Below are positions 13,355-41,961 of a stretch of 48,813 nt of DNA, one piece after another. Under the pieces are notes generated by a model that ran no database searches, was not told where the DNA came from, and was given only the letters and a program-made list of their open reading frames with translations. The DNA comes from an uncultured Opitutia bacterium (lineage in GTDB: Bacteria > Verrucomicrobiota > Verrucomicrobiia > Opitutales > Opitutaceae), in assembly GCA_903839035.1 (NCBI GenBank), contig CAIMAQ010000039.1:1-48813 (forward strand). Direction: 5' to 3'. Each line of letters opens with the position of its first letter. Position 1 is the first letter of the stretch. A program made the position numbers and the translations under genes.

Positions 13355-13418
13355 CACAAGTGGCAAGTACCAGAGCTTGGCCGCTTCAATCGGAAGTCCC
13401 TTGTTATTTGGTACTTCC
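13355..13418. repeat. Word-repeat inverted element J, covering the exosortase stop codon
   Basis: CACAAGTGGCAAGTACCAG (13355-13373) faces CCTTGTTATTTGGTACTTCC (13399-13418). Both arms are built from CAAGTNCC-type words. The TAA stop of the exosortase gene (13404-13406, minus strand) lies within the right arm, so the last residues of that protein are repeat-derived. Confidence 0.6.
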
Positions 13419-15257
13419 GGGCGGCCTTTCAAAGGCCGGCCGGGTTTGATCGAGCACCGTCTGCATCCGCGCCAGTGCCACCGCCTCACCCTCGCGGGCA
13501 TCGGTTTGCATCAGCACATACGCCCAGCGGTCGGCGCGCGCATGGAAAACGCGGTTCCACGCATCGCGCGCCAGCCGGCGCCAGTACGTGCTCTCAATCG
13601 TGTCACCGCCGACAAACGAGTAAACGATGAGCTGCGGCACAACCACGACCCCGCGCGGCGTCTGGACCTCGCGTTGCACGTGCAGGACCGTTGCCGGAAA
13701 TCCCCCCGGCGCGCGGCCCGGCGTGGAGAACCGATGCTCCGTCACCGCCTGGATCGTCCAACCCTGTCCAACCACACACAGCTCCGGCCGGTGAATGGAC
13801 GAGCGGTCGCGTCCGCTCAGTACGATCGAAAAAAACACGCGCTGCGCCGAATTCGACACCGCCACGTAATCCTTGCGCGAGTAGCCCGTATCCGACGGCA
13901 GAATCGCCCGCTCCGCCACCGTCACCTCCGTGCGCCGCCCGATCCACTCCGTGCCGAGAAACACCGGCAGCTCGACCGGATTCAGTTCGTCCGCCGCCAG
14001 CCTCACCCCCACCTGCCCCCGCGGCGGCAATGAGGCGAGGCGCCCAAGGAAAAGCATTTCACCCATCGCCAACACCACGATGACCGCGGCAGCGAGCCAG
14101 ACGGGCGCCTGGCGGAGAGGGGAGATGGAAGATGGGCGATAGGGTGAATCCAATGGTTCGTCCGTCCCAATCTCCGATCTCGCATCTCCCATCTCCGCGC
14201 GCGGGGCCTCAGGCCACACGCGCCTGATCGCGCTCGCCGCGATCATCTCCCCGCCGAGCACGATCACGAACACCCCGAAGCCCATGACTTCGTGCACGCG
14301 TTCGCCCCACCCCTGCCCGCCCCACTGGCCCGCGAACACGATCGCCGAAATCCGCGCGACGTTGCCCAGGTAGATTAGAGGGAAACACAGCAGCACCAGT
14401 GCCCCCCGCCGCCACCACGAGTGGAAATTGAGATAACCCAGCAGCAGCGACAGCGCGAGCAGCGCCATCAGCGAGCGCACGCCCGAGCACGCCGCCGCGA
14501 CGTCGTAGCTGTAGCGTCCATCCGGCGCCAACAGCTGCGTCCCGTTCTGAAACACCCCGATCCCCGCCGCATGCGCGAGCCCGGTGCTCGCCTTGATCAC
14601 CCACAGCCGCAGCCAGAAACCCGCGGAATCGAGGGCGTTGAACGGAATCGCCAGCACCAAAAATCCGAGCGGAAACATCGCCGCCGCGCCCCACCGCCGC
14701 CCGCCCCCGAGCCGCAGTACGCCCCAGGTGAACAACAGCAGCGCCACCACCGATACCCGCGCCTGCTGCGCCGCAAAGCCCACGGCATGCAGCGCGAGTG
14801 CGGCAGCCATGGCCGCGAAAGCCGGCCAGGCGCGCTCTGCGCGGAGAGGAGAGAGGGCAGAGGGTAGATGGACAGAACCCGCAGCAACTTCGGCTTCCAC
14901 CACGGGTGCATGTCCCGCACTTCGCGCATCCGACCCCCTGGCCTGTTCCCCGATCTCCGATCTGCGATCTGCGATCTCCGCCGCACCTCGCGACTCCATC
15001 TTCCCTCTCCCCTCTCCCCTCTCCGTCGTGCGCAAATTGCGCACGACCAGCCAAGCGCTCAGCGCGAGGATGATCAGCCCATGCTCCGTCTCGGATTCCG
15101 GATTCACCCACTGGTAGCCCCACCACCAGAACAACGACGCCGACTTGATGTACCCAAACGACGCGTTGCCGTAAAACTGAAACACCGCCGCCCCCGCCGC
15201 CGCGCAGAGCAGGGCCGGCCACCAGCGACTCCAACGGTTTTCCACGGGAGGATTCAT
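13404..15257 (-). CDS. Exosortase fused to EpsI-like (DUF3485) domain, with two in-frame repeat insertions
   Basis: A 617-residue polytopic membrane protein. The N-terminal part is an exosortase. The catalytic Cys257 is in AACSGVRSL, Arg302 in GNVARISAIV and His322 in VHEVMGFG, the expected triad of this membrane transpeptidase class. The C-terminal part (about 400-617) matches the EpsI partner domain, with GTEWIGRR and IHRPELCVVGQGW. Exosortases cleave and anchor PEP-CTERM-type proteins and are genetically tied to exopolysaccharide. Residues about 78-140 and about 354-382 are encoded by inverted word-repeats and look like insertions in loops. The start overlaps the GT4 stop (ATGA), so the genes are coupled. 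Confidence 0.9.
   Translation of the reverse strand: MNPPVENRWSRWWPALLCAAAGAAVFQFYGNASFGYIKSASLFWWWGYQWVNPESETEHGLIILALSAWLVVRNLRTTERGEGRGKMESRGAAEIADRRSEIGEQARGSDARSAGHAPVVEAEVAAGSVHLPSALSPLRAERAWPAFAAMAAALALHAVGFAAQQARVSVVALLLFTWGVLRLGGGRRWGAAAMFPLGFLVLAIPFNALDSAGFWLRLWVIKASTGLAHAAGIGVFQNGTQLLAPDGRYSYDVAAACSGVRSLMALLALSLLLGYLNFHSWWRRGALVLLCFPLIYLGNVARISAIVFAGQWGGQGWGERVHEVMGFGVFVIVLGGEMIAASAIRRVWPEAPRAEMGDARSEIGTDEPLDSPYRPSSISPLRQAPVWLAAAVIVVLAMGEMLFLGRLASLPPRGQVGVRLAADELNPVELPVFLGTEWIGRRTEVTVAERAILPSDTGYSRKDYVAVSNSAQRVFFSIVLSGRDRSSIHRPELCVVGQGWTIQAVTEHRFSTPGRAPGGFPATVLHVQREVQTPRGVVVVPQLIVYSFVGGDTIESTYWRRLARDAWNRVFHARADRWAYVLMQTDAREGEAVALARMQTVLDQTRPAFERPPGSTK
14114..14197. repeat. Word-repeat inverted element C, in frame inside the exosortase gene
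   Basis: The left arm at 14114-14142 (words GGGAGAT, GGAAGAT, GGGCGAT) pairs with the right arm at 14169-14197 (ATCTCCGATCTCGCATCTCC). It encodes roughly residues 354-382, between the exosortase and EpsI portions. The frame is kept. Confidence 0.75.
14840..15027. repeat. Word-repeat inverted element D, in frame inside the exosortase gene
   Basis: It has GGAGAGGAGAGAGG-type words at 14840-14870, GATCTCC/GATCTGC words at 14950-14984, and CCCTCTCC words at 14990-15027. It encodes about residues 78-140, a charged, low-complexity stretch between predicted membrane segments. It belongs to the same word family as C, E and F. Confidence 0.75.
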
Positions 15258-16456
15258 GGCGTCGCCTTCAACGTTTCCAAGATCGCCGTCACGCGCTCCC
15301 GCGTGAGCCGCGCATAGCTGAAATCCGCCGCGCGCTTCAGCCCCGCCGTCCGTAACTCCGCGGCCAACGCATCGTCCGTGCAGATCCGCCGCAGCGCCTC
15401 GCCCGCCGCCGCCGAGTCGGTGAAATCCACGAACATCGCCGCACTCTTCGCGACTTCGCGCAGCACCGGCAGTTCCTGCAGCACGCACGGGCACCCACAG
15501 GCCATCGCCTCCGTCACGCTCTTGCCAAACGTCTCCCCCGCTGTCGGCAGTACCAGGGCGCGCGCCCCACGGTACAGCGCCGGCAGGGCCGCGTCCTCGA
15601 TCCAGCCGAGAAACTTCACCTGCTCCGCCACGCCCAGTTCCCGCGCCCGCACCTCCGCCCGCGCGCGGCCGCCGTTCCAGTCGCCACCGGCCAGTACGAG
15701 CGGAAATTGCGCCCGCAGCTCCGGCGCAAGCCGCTCATAAGCCGCGAGGGCCAGCTCCGCGCGCTTGTACGGATAAAAATTCGCCGTCCACAACAGGTAC
15801 CGGGGCGGCACCCCTTCACCCCCCGCCGGTCCCTCGGGGCGAAATACGCTGTGATCCAATCCCTCCGGGCTCACGACCACCTGTTCGCGTCGTTCGAGGT
15901 GCGCCGCCGTCCACCCCGAATTGGCGATCACGAGCGCTGCCTTTTTCAGCCCCCGCGCGACCGCTACTCGGCGGTACCACGCGCCGATCCCGCCGCCCGC
16001 CCGCAAATGATGCAGCGAAAACACCTGCATCACCACCGGCAGGCCCGCCGTTCGCAGCGGCACAAATCCCACGGTCAGCAGCGCCGCCGCCCCACGTCGC
16101 TTCGCCTCGGGTGCGACGCGAAAATGATCCGCCCACAGCCGCGTCGTGCGCCGGTCGTTGGCGGGAAAATCCCGCACCACCTCCACGCGCGGGTCGTTGA
16201 TTTCCCAGGGTTGCTCCGGCCCGGCGAACAGCAGCCAGCGCACGTCGGGGAACTGCCGCAGCGCCTCCGCGATAAACCCGTGGAAGAGCGTGGTCAGCCC
16301 CGTGCGCCGGCGCGGATTTTCGCAGAGCAGACTGAAGGCGAGCTTCGGGGCCACTCGGCCAGTGTTGCGGACGCGTCCCGCCGCGCCAGACGAAAATCCC
16401 CCGCCCCCGCAGCCTTGAGTTTCCCGGCGTGCCCGGCATCTCTCGTCGCTGTTCAT
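15254..16456 (-). CDS. Glycosyltransferase family 4 (GT-B fold)
   Basis: A glycosyltransferase of 400 residues if the ATG at 16456 is used. The C-terminal nucleotide-sugar domain is clear: LWTANFYPYKRAELA, then VKFLGWIEDAALPALYRGA, then PTAGETFGKSVTEAMACGCP with the paired Glu of GT4 enzymes. The acceptor domain starts at about KLAFSLLCENPRRRTG. A GTG at 16354 would start just before this segment, drop 34 low-complexity residues and leave 100 bp for divergent promoters. With the ATG, the start overlaps the flippase start on the other strand (CATG). It ends in an ATGA overlap with the exosortase. Confidence 0.87.
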   Translation of the reverse strand: MNSDERCRARRETQGCGGGGFSSGAAGRVRNTGRVAPKLAFSLLCENPRRRTGLTTLFHGFIAEALRQFPDVRWLLFAGPEQPWEINDPRVEVVRDFPANDRRTTRLWADHFRVAPEAKRRGAAALLTVGFVPLRTAGLPVVMQVFSLHHLRAGGGIGAWYRRVAVARGLKKAALVIANSGWTAAHLERREQVVVSPEGLDHSVFRPEGPAGGEGVPPRYLLWTANFYPYKRAELALAAYERLAPELRAQFPLVLAGGDWNGGRARAEVRARELGVAEQVKFLGWIEDAALPALYRGARALVLPTAGETFGKSVTEAMACGCPCVLQELPVLREVAKSAAMFVDFTDSAAAGEALRRICTDDALAAELRTAGLKRAADFSYARLTRERVTAILETLKATP

Positions 16457-30363: not shown

Positions 30364-31314
30364 ATGTCCTCCGCCCCCGCGACCGCCCCGAAATCCATCA
30401 GCAAGAGCCAGTTCGTCGACTCGACGCCGCTGCTCGCTGATCCCGCCGCCTTGCAGGCGCGCGCCAAGGAGGACGGTTACCTGTTTTTCAAGCAGCGGCT
30501 GCCCAAGGACGAGGTGCTCGCGATGCGCGCGGAGATGCTCGCCATTATCGAGAAACACGGTTGGCGCCAACCCGGGCAGGATGCCCTCGGCGGTCTGATC
30601 GACTACGACGCGATCAACCGGCTCACCGAGGAGGAAATGCACCGCACGGATGTGGGCGTCACCGCCGACGCCTACCACGACGTGCAGAAGCTCGAGCGTT
30701 TCCACCGCCTGCCCCACCACCCGCGCCTGCTCGAGATTTACCAGAAGCTCTTCGGTCGCGAGGTGCTCGTCCATCCCCGCCACATCGCGCGGCTGGTCAC
30801 GCCGCACACCTGCATGGTGCCGACGCCGCCGCACCAGGATTTTCCCTACATCCAAGGCACCGCGCAGACCTGGACCTGCTGGTTTCCCGTCGGCGACTGC
30901 CCCAAGCCGCTCGGCGGCCTGATGCTGCTGCGTGCCTCGCACACGCAGGGCTACCTCCCGGTCCAGCCCGCCCGCGGCGCCGGCGGTTTTGCCGTGCCAC
31001 TCTGCCCGACCGAGACCGAGTGGCTGGAGACGGAATATGAGGCCGGCGACGTCCTCACCTTTCCCGCCCACACCGTCCACAAGGCCGCACGCTGCCAGTT
31101 CAAGAATCAGATCCGGCTCTCCATGGATGTGCGCTACCAGCCGATGGACGAGGTCGTGGACAACAGTTCGCTCAACCCGCATTGCACGCTGAAGTGGGAC
31201 GAGATCTACGCCAACTGGCAGTCGGACGACCTGAAATACTACTGGCGCAAAGTTCCCCTCAAGATGAGCGCGTGGGACGACGGTTACCTCAAGCCCAGGC
31301 AGCGGATTTGCTGA
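30364..31314 (+). CDS. Phytanoyl-CoA dioxygenase (PhyH) family protein
   Basis: A 316-residue Fe(II)/2-oxoglutarate oxygenase. The metal triad is visible as HQD (His157, Asp159) in TPPHQDFPYIQG, with a distal His in FPAHTVHKAARC (His236 or His239). An Arg in NQIRLSMDVRYQ fits the 2-oxoglutarate site. The substrate is unknown; family members hydroxylate fatty acyl chains, ectoine or other small molecules. The ATG at 30364 follows the GTAACC repeat region. The TGA stop lies in the left arm of a perfect 10-bp hairpin (31310-31332). Confidence 0.88.
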   Translation: MSSAPATAPKSISKSQFVDSTPLLADPAALQARAKEDGYLFFKQRLPKDEVLAMRAEMLAIIEKHGWRQPGQDALGGLIDYDAINRLTEEEMHRTDVGVTADAYHDVQKLERFHRLPHHPRLLEIYQKLFGREVLVHPRHIARLVTPHTCMVPTPPHQDFPYIQGTAQTWTCWFPVGDCPKPLGGLMLLRASHTQGYLPVQPARGAGGFAVPLCPTETEWLETEYEAGDVLTFPAHTVHKAARCQFKNQIRLSMDVRYQPMDEVVDNSSLNPHCTLKWDEIYANWQSDDLKYYWRKVPLKMSAWDDGYLKPRQRIC

Positions 31315-31332
31315 GCGGCCGAGCCGCTCAGC
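31310..31332 (+). terminator. Perfect hairpin overlapping the PhyH stop codon
   Basis: GCTGAGCGGC-cga-GCCGCTCAGC is a perfect 10-bp stem with a 3-base loop. The PhyH TGA (31312-31314) lies in the left arm. There is no T-tract. It abuts element E, so it may be part of that repeat rather than a dedicated terminator. Confidence 0.5.
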
Positions 31333-31449
31333 GGAGATCGGAGTTCGCAGATCGGTGGCTGAGGTCTGAGGGATGCATTCCGCGAGTTCGCGAAGGGACG
31401 CAGACTTCAGGTACGTCGCCAGATGTTTCCGATCTGCGATCTCCGCCGC
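31331..31449. repeat. Word-repeat inverted element E
   Basis: GCGGAGATCGGAGTTCGCAG and onward (31331-31355) faces CCGATCTGCGATCTCCGC (31429-31446). It has the same GGAGAT/GCAGAT words as elements C, D and F. It occupies the gap between the convergent PhyH and esterase-propeller genes. Confidence 0.72.
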
Positions 31450-31459
31450 GATCGCGCGG

Positions 31460-33127
31460 CTAACACCACAGGTTATCCGGGTGGTTGATTTTGCGGCGGT
31501 ACACGCAGCGGTCGTCCGTGGCATAGAGCCAGTCCTGTCCCTTGCCGCCCAGTGCCACGCCGTCCACACGTTTGCCGCGCTTCGGGTAGAGAATGCCGGC
31601 GATCAAGCCGTTGCGGTCGGAAATTTTGAGCCCGAGTTCCGTCGCAAACATGACCCAGCCGTGCCGACTGACCGCGAGCCCGCCCGCCGTCGGACCGGTG
31701 GCCTCGTCGCCGGGCCGGTGCAGTGGAAAATACGGCGCGCCATGCGCCAGTCCGCCATCCGGCAAAACCGTAAACCGGTGCGCCACCCAGCCCTGCGCGT
31801 CGGTCACGATCAGCTGCGTTCCCTCCAACCACAGCGCCACGCCCGCCGGCTGGCCAAAATCCTTCGCCACCACCCGGCGGTCACCGGCGGTGGTGACCAG
31901 CCAGATGCAGCGGTTAACCGGGTCGGTCACGTAGGTGCTGCCGTTGGCCGCAAACGCCACGCTGTGCGCATCAATGTCCGCCAGCCACGTTTCGGTCCGG
32001 CCGCTGTGGTCGCAGGTCAGGATATTCCGGACCGCAGGCTGGCAGGCATATAGTTTCCCACCGGCGCCGCAGCTGAGGCTCTGCACAGTGTCGAATCCCT
32101 CCGCCAACTTTACCGCCGCGCCGTCGCCCGCTACCCGGTAGACGGATTTCTCGTAGGCGCTGAAAACAAACACGTCGCCCGTCGGACCCGCCGCCAGCGT
32201 CGTCGCCGACATGTATTCGCCCGGCACCAGTTCCCATTGCTCACCTGGCACCGTCACCCGCGCGAGGGCCTGCTGGGAATTCACCCCGGCCTGGATCGGC
32301 TTCGGATAATCCCGCCAGAGCCAGCGCAGTGCATCCGGGAAAATCATTGAGCCATGATAATCATCATGGCCGGCGTGCTTCGCCCACGCGTGTTTCACCT
32401 CGTAGCCCGCATATTCCAGTGCCGCGAGCATCGCCTGGTTGGCCGACCACCAGTCACCGCAGAAGATTTTGAAATCCCGCGCCCCGCTTTCCAGGAACAC
32501 CCGCAACGGCTTCGGTTCGGTGATCCGGATCAGCGGCGCCAGCGTGTCCGCCCCGCGCATTGGCGTGTAGGACCCGACGATGCTCAGCACGCGCGCAAAC
32601 GCGTCGGGCCGTTCCCACGCAACGTTGAACGCGCACTTTGCACCACTGCTCCCGCCCATGATTGCGCGGCTGTTACCGTCCGGCGCCAGCGGGTAGCGGC
32701 GGCTGACCTCCGGCAAAATCTCCTCCGTCAGGAAGCGCGCGTACCGGTCGCCAAGGCTGTCGTATTCAAAGCTGCGGTTGTTGAGGGCGGCGACGCCGGC
32801 GACCGACGCTGGAATGACCCCGGGATTGATGAAGATCCCGATCGTCACCGGGATCGCCTGCTGGTGAATGAGGTTGTCGAGGATCGTCGGAATCCGCCAC
32901 CGCCGCTCCGGCTGCCAGTGCGCCTCGCCATCCTGCACCACCAGCACACACGCCGGCTTCGCCGCGTCGTACTGCGCCGGCACGTAGATCCAACAATCGC
33001 GCACGGTGCCGGGAAATACCCGGCTCGTGGACCAGGTGAATTTTTCCAGCCTGCCCGCCGGCACGCCGGGCTGCGGAAACGAGTCGGGGCCCAGCGGAAA
33101 TTCGGCGTCCAGTTGCTCGGGGGTCAT
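31460..33127 (-). CDS. Esterase (Fes/EsterD-like) fused to SMP-30/gluconolactonase beta-propeller
   Basis: A 555-residue two-domain protein. Residues about 30-275 form an alpha/beta-hydrolase esterase: WIYVPAQYDAAKPACVLVVQDG, the nucleophile Ser in IMGGSSGAKCAF, and a late His in AGHDDYHGSMIF. Residues about 300-555 look like an SMP-30/LRE beta-propeller with repeated DVFVFSAYEKSVYRVAG, GKLYACQPAVRNI and TYVTDPVNRCIWLV blades. Such fusions probably hydrolyse sugar esters or lactones. No signal peptide is obvious. ATG at 33127 is preferred; an in-frame GTG lies two codons upstream. Confidence 0.85.
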   Translation of the reverse strand: MTPEQLDAEFPLGPDSFPQPGVPAGRLEKFTWSTSRVFPGTVRDCWIYVPAQYDAAKPACVLVVQDGEAHWQPERRWRIPTILDNLIHQQAIPVTIGIFINPGVIPASVAGVAALNNRSFEYDSLGDRYARFLTEEILPEVSRRYPLAPDGNSRAIMGGSSGAKCAFNVAWERPDAFARVLSIVGSYTPMRGADTLAPLIRITEPKPLRVFLESGARDFKIFCGDWWSANQAMLAALEYAGYEVKHAWAKHAGHDDYHGSMIFPDALRWLWRDYPKPIQAGVNSQQALARVTVPGEQWELVPGEYMSATTLAAGPTGDVFVFSAYEKSVYRVAGDGAAVKLAEGFDTVQSLSCGAGGKLYACQPAVRNILTCDHSGRTETWLADIDAHSVAFAANGSTYVTDPVNRCIWLVTTAGDRRVVAKDFGQPAGVALWLEGTQLIVTDAQGWVAHRFTVLPDGGLAHGAPYFPLHRPGDEATGPTAGGLAVSRHGWVMFATELGLKISDRNGLIAGILYPKRGKRVDGVALGGKGQDWLYATDDRCVYRRKINHPDNLWC

Positions 33128-37366: not shown

Positions 37367-38269
37367 GTGTCCGACTACCATCTCGACCACCTGCAATACC
37401 TGGAGACCGAAGCCATTCACGTCATGCGCGAGGTCGCCGGCGAGTTTGAGCGCCCCGCCCTGCTCTTCTCCGGCGGCAAGGACTCCATCTGCCTCCTGCG
37501 CCTCGCGGAAAAGGCTTTCCGGCCGTCCGACCTGCCGCTGCCACTGCTGAACGTCGACACCGGCCACCACTTTCCCGAGCTGAACACCTTCCGCGACGCG
37601 CGCGCCAAGGAACTCGGCGCCAAGCTCATCATCCGCCGCGTCGAGGACGCCATCGCCTCGGGCTTCGCCACCCCCGCTCCCGGCGAAGTCAGCCGCAACC
37701 GCCTGCAAATCCCCACGCTGCTCGCCGCCATCGACGAGTTCCGCTTCGAATGCTGCATCGGCGGCGCGCGGCGTGATGAGGAAAAATCCCGGGCCAAGGA
37801 GCGCTTCTTCAGCTTCCGCGACAGTTTCGGCCAGTGGGACCCGAAAAACCAGCGGCCCGAGATCTGGAACCTCTACAACGGCCGCCTCAACCCAGGCGAA
37901 AACATGCGGGTGTTTCCGCTCAGCAACTGGACCGAACAGGATGTCTGGGAATACATCCGCCGCGAGCAACTCGCCGTCCCGAGCATCTATTTCAGCCACC
38001 ACCGCACCTGCGTTCGCCGTGGCGGCCAGTGGCTCCCGGTCAACGACATCGTCCCGCCCAAGCCCAATGAGGACGTCCGCGCGCTCGTCGTGCGCGTGCG
38101 CACCATCGGCGACATCATCAGCACCGGCCTGGTCGAGTCCCCCGCCGACAGCGTGGACGACATCATTGTCGAGATCGCCGCCGCCCGGGTGACGGAGCGC
38201 GGCTCCCGGGCCGACGACAAGTCCTCCGAAGCCGCCATGGAGGACCGCAAGAAAGCCGGTTATTTCTAA
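37367..38269 (+). CDS. cysD: Sulfate adenylyltransferase subunit 2 (CysD)
   Basis: A 300-residue ATP-pyrophosphatase-type subunit that forms APS from ATP and sulfate. LLFSGGKDSICLLRLAEKAF is the PP-loop, NVDTGHHFPE follows, and CCIGGARRDEEKSRAKER and FPLSNWTEQDVWEYIRRE are family signatures. The C-terminal SSEAAMEDRKKAGYF tail is standard, so the protein is intact up to its stop. The start is a GTG at 37367. Its GTPase partner CysN is separated from it by an inserted cassette with an S23 gene, whereas the two genes are usually adjacent. Confidence 0.95.
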   Translation: MSDYHLDHLQYLETEAIHVMREVAGEFERPALLFSGGKDSICLLRLAEKAFRPSDLPLPLLNVDTGHHFPELNTFRDARAKELGAKLIIRRVEDAIASGFATPAPGEVSRNRLQIPTLLAAIDEFRFECCIGGARRDEEKSRAKERFFSFRDSFGQWDPKNQRPEIWNLYNGRLNPGENMRVFPLSNWTEQDVWEYIRREQLAVPSIYFSHHRTCVRRGGQWLPVNDIVPPKPNEDVRALVVRVRTIGDIISTGLVESPADSVDDIIVEIAAARVTERGSRADDKSSEAAMEDRKKAGYF

Positions 38270-38273
38270 CCGG

Positions 38274-38821
38274 CGAAGATGGGAGATAGCAGATGGCGGA
38301 TAGGGCCAGGACCGATGAAATTTAACATTACACATACAAGACGGAAGCCGCCTGTGCCTCAGGAATGGCCACGCGGATATGGCAGGGCGCAGATGGCAGA
38401 TTCGCTTCACACCTTCGAAGGATTGGAAGCGTGGCAAAGCGGTCGCGAACCCACCCGATTAGCCTACGGTTGCTTTCGCCGAGGACCCGCCGCCAGGGAC
38501 TTTGGATTGCGCGACCAAGTCCAGCGTGCGGCGGTGTCAGCGATGACCAACATTGCCGAGGGTTTCGAGCGGATGCACCTGCAGGAGAAGACCCAGTTTT
38601 ATAATGTCGCCCGTGCTTCCTGCGGCGAAGTCAGGTCCCTTTCCTACGTGATGCTGGACGCCACGTACATCACCGGAGACGAGCACAACCGGATCCAGCA
38701 GGCCGCTATCCACACTGGGAGACTCCTGACGGGCCTCCTCCGTTCCACCGAAGCGCGCAAACACTAATTTTTCATGTCTGCTCCGTCCCCATCCCCCATC
38801 TCCCATCTCCCCTCTCCGGCG
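38274..38821. repeat. Inverted-repeat-bounded cassette F carrying an S23 gene
   Basis: The left arm at 38274-38304 (words GGGAGAT, AGCAGAT, GGCGGAT) faces the right arm at 38786-38821 (CCCCATC, CCCATCT, CCCCTCT words). Between them lies a single small gene of the S23 family. The left arm begins five bases after the cysD stop, and the right arm lies inside the first codons of cysN. This looks like an insertion of about 550 bp into an ancestral cysD-cysN junction, similar in plan to 23S rRNA intervening sequences. Confidence 0.65.
38393..38767 (+). CDS. Four-helix-bundle protein of the S23 / rRNA intervening-sequence family
   Basis: A 124-residue all-helical protein. FEGLEAWQSGREPTRLAYGC, GLRDQVQRAAVSAMTNIAEG and the downstream VARASCGEVRSLSYVML helix follow the S23 family pattern. 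S23 proteins were first seen encoded inside intervening sequences of 23S rRNA genes, and relatives are accessory proteins of diversity-generating retroelements; their molecular role is unclear. The ATG at 38393 gives the usual N-terminus. Frames further upstream read through the repeat arm. It sits between cysD and cysN and would be cotranscribed with them. No reverse transcriptase is nearby. Confidence 0.85.
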   Translation: MADSLHTFEGLEAWQSGREPTRLAYGCFRRGPAARDFGLRDQVQRAAVSAMTNIAEGFERMHLQEKTQFYNVARASCGEVRSLSYVMLDATYITGDEHNRIQQAAIHTGRLLTGLLRSTEARKH

Positions 38822-40138
38822 GCCGGCGGCGCCGCGCGCCTGACTGACATCCTCCGCTTCAACACCTGCGGTAGCGTGGATGATGGCAAGTCCACGCTCA
38901 TCGGCCGCCTGCTTTACGACTCGAAGTCCCTCATGGAGGACCAGCTCGAGGCGCTCGAGCGCTCCGCCGACATCACCGGCGGCGGCCAGGTCAACCTCGC
39001 CAACCTCACCGACGGCCTCCGCGCCGAGCGCGAGCAGGGCATCACCATCGACGTCGCTTACCGCTACTTCGCCACGCCGCGCCGGAAGTTCATCATCGCC
39101 GACACCCCCGGCCACATCCAGTACACGCGCAACATGGTCACCGGCGCCTCCGCCGCGAACCTCTCCATCGTGCTGGTGGACGCGCGCCTAGGCGTGATCG
39201 AGCAGAGCCGCCGCCACACCTACCTCGCCTCGCTGCTGCGCATCCCCCACCTCGTCGTCGCCGTCAACAAGATGGACCTCGTCGGCTGGAGCGAGGCGCG
39301 CTTCAACGAGATCCGCGCCGAGTTCGAGAAATTCCTGCCGCGCCTCGACATCAAGGACGTCAAGTTCATCCCCATCAGCGCGCTGAACGGCGACAACGTC
39401 GTGGATGCCTCGGTCAACACGCCGTGGTATCCGGGCCCGACCCTCCTCCACCACCTCGAAACCGTGCACATCGGCAGCGACTGGAACCTGAACGGCTTCC
39501 GCCTGCCGGTACAGTGGGTCAACCGCCCGAACAACCCCACCGACCCGCGGCTCCATGATTTCCGCGGCTTCAGCGGCCAGATCGCCGGCGGCATCGTCCG
39601 CCCCGGCCAGAAGGTCATGGTCCTGCCGGGCGGCCAGGTCACTACGGTAAAGGAAATCTGGACCTACGACGGGTCCGTGGCCGAGGCCTTCTGCCCCCAG
39701 TCCATCACGCTGCTCCTCGCCGACGACATCGATGTCAGCCGCGGCAACATGATCATCGGCCAGAACCACCTGCCCGGTTCCAGCAGTGACCTGCTCGCCA
39801 ACGTGTGCTGGATGCATCAGCGCCCCCTGGTTGCCGGGAAAAAATGCTGGCTGAAGCACACCACCCACAACGTCCAGGTCGCCGTCACTGCCCTCAATCA
39901 CCGCCTCGACATCAGCACGTTCGAGACCCTGCCCGCGCCGGCGGAGCTGGCACTCAATGACATCGGCGAGATCCGCCTCCGCACCGCCAGTCCGATCTTT
40001 TTCGACGGCTACGAAACCAACCGCCTGACCGGTTCCTTCATCCTGATCGAGCAGGGCACGCACGCCACCGTCGCCGCCGGCATGCTGCTCCCGCCGCGTG
40101 AGGTCGTGCGGCCGGACGCCACGGATTTCGTGATCTGA
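38774..40138 (+). CDS. cysN: Sulfate adenylyltransferase subunit 1, GTPase (CysN)
   Basis: A 454-residue EF-Tu-like GTPase activating the CysD reaction. Switch and nucleotide motifs are GSVDDGKST, REQGITIDVAYRYF, DTPGHIQYTRNM and NKMDLVG. Domains 2 and 3 follow and the protein ends without an APS kinase (CysC) fusion. The first about 18 residues (SAPSPSPISHLPSPAAGG) are encoded by the right repeat arm and have no counterpart in typical CysN, so the native start was probably replaced on insertion of the S23 cassette. It ends 18 bases before the convergent UroD-like gene. Confidence 0.94.
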   Translation: MSAPSPSPISHLPSPAAGGAARLTDILRFNTCGSVDDGKSTLIGRLLYDSKSLMEDQLEALERSADITGGGQVNLANLTDGLRAEREQGITIDVAYRYFATPRRKFIIADTPGHIQYTRNMVTGASAANLSIVLVDARLGVIEQSRRHTYLASLLRIPHLVVAVNKMDLVGWSEARFNEIRAEFEKFLPRLDIKDVKFIPISALNGDNVVDASVNTPWYPGPTLLHHLETVHIGSDWNLNGFRLPVQWVNRPNNPTDPRLHDFRGFSGQIAGGIVRPGQKVMVLPGGQVTTVKEIWTYDGSVAEAFCPQSITLLLADDIDVSRGNMIIGQNHLPGSSSDLLANVCWMHQRPLVAGKKCWLKHTTHNVQVAVTALNHRLDISTFETLPAPAELALNDIGEIRLRTASPIFFDGYETNRLTGSFILIEQGTHATVAAGMLLPPREVVRPDATDFVI

Positions 40139-41829: not shown

Positions 41830-41833
41830 AAAG

Positions 41834-41961
41834 GAGCGAGTAGCAGGTAGTGAGCATACCGGCCGGAACGCCGTGCCGCCACCACCCGGCAGTCGAAGCC
41901 GTTCCCGCCAATTCGCGCGCTTGCGCTACTCGCTACTCGCTACTCACTACTCGCTACTGCC
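41834..41961. repeat. Word-repeat inverted element G
   Basis: The left arm GAGCGAGTAGCAGGTAGTGAG (41834-41854, extending to 41859) faces a longer right arm at 41923-41961, made of five or six CTACTCG/CTACTCA words. It separates the Rrf2 gene and cysE and ends ten bases before the cysE ATG. Confidence 0.72.

Follow-up and report, generated by a model that had tools for sequence, protein, structure and literature searches.

What is a gene of the S23 family doing between cysD and cysN, two linked genes of sulfur metabolism that encode partner subunits, and how did it come to be there? The question arises in the window studied here, a stretch of 48,813 nucleotides from an uncultured Opitutia bacterium (contig CAIMAQ010000039.1), where an earlier note, made from the sequence alone, had seen an S23 gene inserted at this junction within inverted arrays of 7-nt words. 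S23 (four helix bundle) genes are annotated across prokaryotes and, to our knowledge, have no known role. We found that most sampled S23 genes, in bacteria and archaea alike, lie in cassettes of this kind, each usually built on its own word. What the window contains is quite probably a settled copy of a small mobile element, with an S23 (Avd-like) gene as its only gene and inverted 7-nt word arrays as its ends.

The S23 cassette between cysD and cysN

Open reading frames (ORFs) and Pfam matches bore out the position of the S23 gene between cysD and cysN. The locus consists of the following parts:

37367-38269, plus strand: cysD (sulfate adenylyltransferase subunit 2), the upstream host gene (ORF; Pfam PAPS_reduct, E 7.6e-37)
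38255-38274, across the cysD stop: outer hairpin GCCGGTTA-TTTC-TAACCGGC with a perfect 8-bp stem
38270-38305, plus strand: 5' heptad array of GGGAGAT-type words, left end of the element (inverted-repeat search)
38373-38401, plus strand: partial second copy of the 5' array, overlapping the S23 start codon (76% to 38273-38301)
38393-38767, plus strand: S23 gene, 124 aa (PF05635, E 5.9e-24, 84.8 bits versus a cut-off of 33.8)
38774-40138, plus strand: cysN, the downstream host gene, with its start codon within the element (ORF; GTP_EFTU, E 1.8e-42)
38787-38822, minus strand: 3' heptad array, the 5' array in reverse complement; right terminus of the element

The GGGAGAT-type arrays, which the earlier note had placed at 38274-38304 and 38786-38821, are real and beyond chance: at 38270-38305 and 38787-38822 they form the longest inverted repeat of the region (36 nt, 81% complementary, with 481 nt between). 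The pattern GGGAGATNGNNGATNG had 6+6 matches in the 3.39-Mb genome, three of these 12 being of a GGGAGATCG type, versus 0+0 for the reversed pattern. The outer hairpin overlaps the outer edge of the 5' array and also forms in the predicted RNA fold. Judging from relatives such as locus L091, the S23 gene most likely starts at ATG 38393 rather than at 38279. Its stop lies 6 nt before the cysN start at 38774, which thus falls within the element, so that translation of the 3' array extends CysN at its N terminus. The view that the intervening segment holds only S23 was right in that S23 is the sole gene between the arrays, and wrong in that the segment is not purely intergenic and includes the cysN start. 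There is no reverse transcriptase between the arrays of this element, ORFs and Pfam matches revealed no transposase gene within its inverted repeats, and positions 38000-39200 had no Rfam match up to E 1, that is, no group I or II intron or other known RNA family.

The encoded protein belongs to PF05635 (S23 / 23S_rRNA_IVP), with a bit score above the Pfam cut-off and a four-helix-bundle fold. Its AlphaFold2 model is a confident four-helix bundle (predicted local distance difference test, pLDDT, 95.2) that matches 2gsc (Z 18.2) and 2rld (Z 16.2), followed by Avd of diversity-generating retroelements (Z 13.5-14.5). The Avd structures 4DWL and 8UBE superpose on it with a root-mean-square deviation of 1.7-2.1; unrelated bundles reach Z 13.0 in the same list. 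PF05635 has been linked with Avd (PMC10053308, in excerpt). The likeness to these retroelements, as compared here, is one of fold: the S23 element has no reverse transcriptase.

Inverted heptad arrays around S23 genes at large

Each S23 locus was given an arm score: the 200 nt preceding the S23 domain were compared with the reverse complement of the 200 nt that follow, and the best local match was taken (threshold 14). The element in the window scores 23. The family set comprised the 106 loci with full domain and flanks out of 122 S23 domain hits, from a score-ranked list in which weak S23 are therefore under-sampled. Its median score was 20, and 97 of the 106 loci reached the threshold, compared with 28 of 409 shifted windows and 252 of 2650 pairings of arms swapped between loci. 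Similarly, 73 of 80 loci did so in a cross-phylum set (the best 80 of at least 558 confirmed stretches from one scan of public genomes, named loci), versus 23 of 301 shifted windows and 146 of 2000 swapped pairings. Titles in this set name Verrucomicrobia, Acidobacteria, Planctomycetes, Bacteroidetes groups, Proteobacteria, Chloroflexi, Gemmatimonadetes, candidate-phylum bacteria and archaea; of its four archaeal loci, L205, L212 and L222 reach the threshold and L204 stays below it. All ten sampled plasmid S23 genes (nine cyanobacterial and one from Gemmatirosa; ten copies of 20 listed, 30 found) scored at least 17 (shifted windows, 2/40). A control of 84 small ORFs matched in size, from 438 kb of the genome to which the window belongs (G000), had only five at or above 14. 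Within the genus, 21 of 32 examined S23 matches (53 listed) passed, and 17 of the 21 scored at least 14. Ten further genus loci, taken with wider windows and no control, included eight at or above 14, L004 at 13 and L063 at 10, and the remaining one of the 11 that had not passed, L061, lies at a contig edge. The association of S23 genes elsewhere with inverted word arrays, on which the earlier note had staked its idea, thus holds in the family, across phyla and on plasmids.

On plasmids of Anabaena sp. 90 (L327) and Pseudanabaena galeata (L328), S23 and its arrays lie between cas6 and cas4, in Anabaena with a type I-D cas1 downstream. A CRISPR survey counts 23S rRNA IVP among CRISPR-associated domains (PMC10910872, in excerpt), an entry that the presence of S23 at cas6–cas4 in two genera may explain.

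The arrays share a period rather than a word. Identity within arms at lag 7 was 0.62 and 0.61 in the two sets, with 54-59% at lags 14 and 21 and 0.21-0.33 at lags that are not multiples of 7, and the best period of the 5' arm was 7 in 89 of 97 family and 62 of 73 cross-phylum elements. A minority of other S23 loci had best periods of 8 and 9 nt. The window's genome also has, on contig C9, a divergent S23-like gene (L004) with an inverted 9-nt word array of the TATGGGACC type. The words differ among elements (GGGAGAT, GAGTAGC, GTTGAGA, GGAGTCA, TAAGCTT, GGCTAGA, GTGACGA and others), so what defines the ends seems to be their period and self-complementarity; the expectation that S23 genes elsewhere would lie between the same word arrays was not borne out, each element mostly having its own. 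The 5' array is purine-rich in the S23 sense (83/89 and 60/65), which would suit ribosome binding.

At cysD–cysN itself the words have drifted, by eye, from GGGAGAT (G000, G052) to GGAAGAT (G124), GGAGATC/GGAGTTC (G015) and GCAGTTC (G152, G141), and the two arms of each element remain largely complementary despite this drift. Among same-site copies, own arms beat crossed arms in 256 of 311 pairs (mean 21.6 versus 16.3), and where one copy was paired the other was paired too in 885 of 1372 columns, figures that lean upward because arms were picked by their pairing. Words were also counted genome-wide. GGAGTCAGGAGTCAGG had 24, 20, 9, 2, 1 and 0 matches in six genomes with an S23 typed to that word and 18 in total across the other 144 of 150 genomes, in a sample of related genomes where overlapping and S23-adjacent matches are included and some S23 are untyped. 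GAGTAGC gave a less clean picture, being counted 41 times in G122, which has such an S23, and 0 times in several genomes also having one, as well as 31 times in G077, whose S23 is not in the sample, and 10 times in G020, whose sampled S23 have other words. For GAGAGTTGA the reversed pattern describes the same array, so its count has no valid control.

Unit ends, operon junctions and S23-less elements

Sorted by both neighbours, 88 of the 106 family loci fall into 15 recurrent sites, among them pheS–pheT, gyrB–gyrA, gatA–gatB, nuoF–nuoG, sdhA–sdhB, rfbB–rfbA and substrate-binding protein–livH (neighbours named by NCBIfam, two of 20 fragments having no match, and several others by eye). A single lineage with GAGTAGC words occupies pheS–pheT, gyrB–gyrA and gatA–gatB. 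With nuoF–nuoG as outgroup, its tree implies seven site changes over four sites, where the minimum is three. By the approximately unbiased (AU) test, a single clade was rejected for pheST (p-AU 1e-4) and for gatAB (0.043) and not rejected for gyrBA (0.156).

To locate the edges of the moving unit, we compared 11 of the 18 GAGTAGC copies (omitting L027, L054, L103, L112, L134, L139 and L158), with pieces of at least 60 nt out of register excluded. All 15 same-site pairs remained similar for 415-500 nt past the element on either side. Among the 40 different-site pairs, homology never extended more than 10 nt beyond the arrays, and in 37 its edges lay at most 15 nt from the array boundaries at both ends. 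Homology between different sites thus starts and stops at the arrays, which are the termini of a unit of ~430 bp. On the GAGTAGC lineage, and not on the window copy, the arrays are seen to delimit a unit that has relocated from one operon junction to another, a point that goes beyond the earlier note; this lineage has the same ends at different sites, as insertion sequences and other DNA transposons do.

The insertions are mostly located between the upstream stop and the downstream start codon, or near them. From the upstream stop to the beginning of the 5' array the median distance is 5 nt (n = 102; middle half -4 to 15), with ORFs assigned mechanically inside a fixed range. For the downstream start, counted from the 3' array, the median is 4.5 nt (n = 34; middle half -10 to 10), and in seven of nine pheT and three of four gatB cases it falls 2-6 nt past the array. 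Choosing the start closest to the array biases these values towards short distances, which tells against so neat a fit. In rfbA and most cysN cases the downstream start is within the element. Around the S23 of nuoF–nuoG, L101 (G002) and L104 (G051) hold several GGAGTCA arrays within ~8 kb, as if by local jumping.

Presence at cysD–cysN is patchy. CysN of this type occurs in 11 of 12 genomes of the genus, and S23 stands at the junction in six of these 11 congeners: with arrays in G000, G015, G124, G141 and G152, and in G150, where it lies at a contig edge with the sequence 5' of S23 outside the data. The earlier note had proposed looking for an empty site in relatives, and the other five (G085, G154, G059, G151 and G153) have no S23 at the junction, G085 beside a CysN 99% identical to the window's, with 55 nt from the cysD stop to the conserved CysN start region. 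The gaps between cysD stop and CysN are 58 nt in G154 and 91 nt in G059, both without S23, and G151 and G153 show apparent S23 remnants by eye. The pattern is one of sporadic presence at a conserved site, as for the intervening sequences (IVS) of 23S rRNA, and this comparison of sequences supports the view that the segment behaves as an insertion. Among 18 further family loci parsed, out of 27, S23 is at cysD–cysN only in L091; the unparsed L087 and L098 have S23-less inverted arrays of other words, by eye. In G020 (L159), S23 also lies upstream of CysN, with an arm score of 11. A different S23 gene of G015 (L051:1501-1815) is interrupted by an in-frame TAG; it may be in decay, as may the remnants of G151 and G153.

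Arrays of this kind also occur without S23. When 438 kb of G000 were scanned de novo, nine period-7 inverted elements came up, one with S23 and the others of 87-188 nt, and control scans at periods 5, 6, 8, 9, 10 and 11 yielded 0, 2, 0, 1, 1 and 0. The S23-less (solo) elements in the window are:

14112-14198: solo inverted heptad element with GGGAGAT words, in the minus-strand ORF 13404-15494
14840-15027: second solo inverted heptad element, in the same ORF 13404-15494
31310-31460: solo inverted heptad element with GGAGATC words and outer hairpins on both sides (partner arm and hairpins by eye)
41831-41961: solo inverted element with GAGTAGC words, of the family of the pheST, gyrBA and gatAB elements (pair by eye)

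The first two are missing or replaced by other words in aligned relatives. ORF 13404-15494 stays open despite both, and at these positions relatives carry other word arrays, including some of 9-nt period, so that the two places look like hypervariable array slots. For 31310-31460 and 41831-41961 the scan gave one arm each, and neither is in the de novo list of inverted elements. In G151, which has a GAGTAGC S23 element, 17 of 19 other sampled places are, by eye, a dispersed element of ~170 bp with the same words inverted round a loop, a shared outer hairpin and, in most, a GTAG foot. One solo GAGTAGC element of this genome (L312) has, by eye, an apparent insertion-sequence transposase stretch in its loop. 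Outer hairpins with a stem of at least 8 on either side accompany 13 of 88 family elements versus 2 of 695 control windows, and stems of at least 7 were found in 0 of 65 elements of the cross-phylum set. The outer hairpin was hence dropped as a defining part, being absent across phyla and present in only a minority of family elements.

Related systems and the origin of the cassettes

Two published systems come nearest: the intervening sequences of rRNA, and the heptamer repeats described in xanthomonads and Nostoc (PMC4692102, in excerpt). In Coxiella and Leptospira, the 23S rRNA IVS has S23 as its sole ORF and stem-forming complementary ends, as here; such IVS are sporadic among strains, have sites conserved across species and are deemed selfish or parasitic, and RNase III release is established for rRNA IVS of similar layout (PMC4990558, in excerpt). 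The earlier note had suggested that the cassette may be the same type of element. This holds for the S23-type ORF within complementary ends and for the arms, which are predicted to pair in part: when the RNA is folded, the 3' array takes up 19 of the 36 bases of the 5' array, in minimum-energy and centroid structures alike. It does not hold for the location, which is a protein operon (cysD–cysN) and not a 16S/23S rRNA helix. Its own ends are element-specific arrays of 7-nt words.

Xanthomonas has arrays of GGGAATC and Nostoc of GGGGATT; they are mostly intergenic, and X. campestris has 70 inverted pairs of them. An excess of heptamer repeats is known from several bacteria, with slippage as a proposed origin (PMC4692102, in excerpt). 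These are heptads like those of the S23 cassettes and are treated in that paper as quadruplex repeats; the words S23, four helix and intervening are absent from the paper. X. campestris also encodes an S23 protein, XCC0516 (2GSC). Cyanobacterial short tandemly repeated heptamers (STRR) are likewise heptamer arrays, for which we know of no S23 link; the nine cyanobacterial plasmid S23 genes studied here have inverted arrays, most of them heptads. Repetitive extragenic palindromes and bacterial interspersed mosaic elements (REP/BIME) and miniature inverted-repeat transposable elements (MITE) are short, dispersed and hairpin-forming palindromes. The S23-less copies in G151 are alike, whereas S23 cassettes differ by their element-specific word arrays as ends and by a coding version that carries S23. 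In the open-access literature, with subscription journals mostly outside the search, we recognised no paper linking S23 genes to heptad arrays or describing the unit.

As a small mobile element, the cassette could work as follows. S23 would need no promoter because it would ride on the host operon message, and the purine-rich 5' array would be its ribosome-binding region. The arms would close an RNA stem with the S23 message as its loop and so isolate the insert, leaving the flanking host genes usable, as with 23S rRNA IVS; by analogy with these, RNase III may free the stem-closed insert. The host would tolerate the insert because it lies between stop and start and is closed on itself. S23 might aid the movement of its own element and of S23-less hairpin copies with the same words. 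Since the unit encodes no recombinase, movement would need a partner in trans, probably an enzyme acting with S23; the Avd-like fold of the model makes a reverse transcriptase an attractive candidate, with a Y1 transposase as its rival.

Several observations weigh against this reading. The element codes for no known mobility enzyme. No target-site duplication was shown, the flanks at cysD–cysN being too diverged and the other sites offering no close empty pair, and no base-exact empty site was shown at cysD–cysN, where the leaders are too different. The stability of the whole segment is modest (z -1.41, with one of 20 shuffles as low). Arm scores stay below 14 in nine of 106 family and seven of 80 cross-phylum loci, and two of nine annotated plasmid copies are antisense to both neighbours. 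At three of 15 sites (loc 6, 8 and 14) own arms show no gain over crossed arms, and of 1890 differing same-site columns, 885 are paired in both copies, 865 broken in one and 140 broken in both. Horizontal gain at cysD–cysN was not established either: the S23 of G000 and G150 is 63% identical to that of G052, from another genus, and 50-55% to those of congeners (CysN, 86% and 90-96%), and a single genus clade was not rejected (p-AU 0.318). Finally, S23 forms one clade at seven of nine sites tested (four rows each; cysD–cysN eight), so most copies look like old and mainly inherited residents.

This one-clade pattern is also what would be expected if the cassette were an immobile regulatory module, in which S23 binds the word arrays of its own mRNA and tunes operon partners, whence its sites among subunit genes. 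The preserved arm match at most sites while words drift fits such a module, as do the partner-subunit neighbours at several sites (pheS–pheT, gyrB–gyrA, gatA–gatB, nuoF–nuoG, sdhA–sdhB and cysD–cysN), although the clustering of sites by conserved neighbour pairs biases this excess. Patchy presence with apparent decay at cysD–cysN and a single lineage at three unrelated junctions speak against it, and we regard it as unlikely. We hold a REP/BIME-like origin, with hairpin repeats mobilised in trans by a Y1 (RAYT-type) transposase and S23 as a caught passenger, to be just as improbable. REP/BIME mobilised by RAYT are GTAG- or GGAG-footed hairpins beside a Y1 transposase gene. S23-less hairpin elements are indeed common (eight of the nine period-7 elements in the 438 kb of G000), the solo copies of G151 have outer hairpins, most of them GTAG-footed by eye, and Y1 transposases occur in nine of 12 genus genomes, including the window's. 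However, none of six Y1 genes examined has flanking inverted heptad arrays, one having a single short period-7 stretch; the three Y1-less congeners (G141, G107 and G154) include the S23-rich G141 with 11 matches; and outer hairpins are missing from the cross-phylum set. Nor would a passenger be expected inside most cassettes of many phyla, with the proviso that S23 was the query and cassettes with other genes were not sought. That the arrays are ordinary heptamer microsatellites, incidentally associated with S23, is very improbable: polymerase slippage has been proposed for the heptamers over-represented in several bacteria (PMC4692102), yet the layout is inverted at nearly all S23 loci of the family set and rarely so around size-matched ORFs, own arms match better than those of other elements, and the unit ends at the arrays. 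Shifted windows, swapped arms, size-matched ORFs and other periods led us to reject an origin by chance or as microsatellites.

The reading as a mobile element could be extended, tentatively and with considerable doubt, to an unrecognised mobile class in Bacteria and Archaea. Its ends would be set by the 7-nt period and self-complementarity, each element with its own evolving word, and it would enter operon stop-start junctions through an RNA intermediate, with S23, like Avd, binding RNA and a reverse transcriptase in trans. The rRNA IVS would be members that landed in rRNA, and the cyanobacterial and xanthomonad heptamers non-coding offspring.

We know of no accepted explanation for bacterial heptamer repeats. 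Our findings tie them to S23 by indicating that such repeats can form the termini of a mobile unit that bears S23 in its coding version, and may also descend from it, and they place rRNA intervening sequences in a wider context. They also suggest a reason for the presence of S23 genes inside operons such as cas6–cas4, gyrB–gyrA and pheS–pheT, and offer a test case for how an end that varies in sequence and is defined by its period is recognised, and how its two arms are kept matched.

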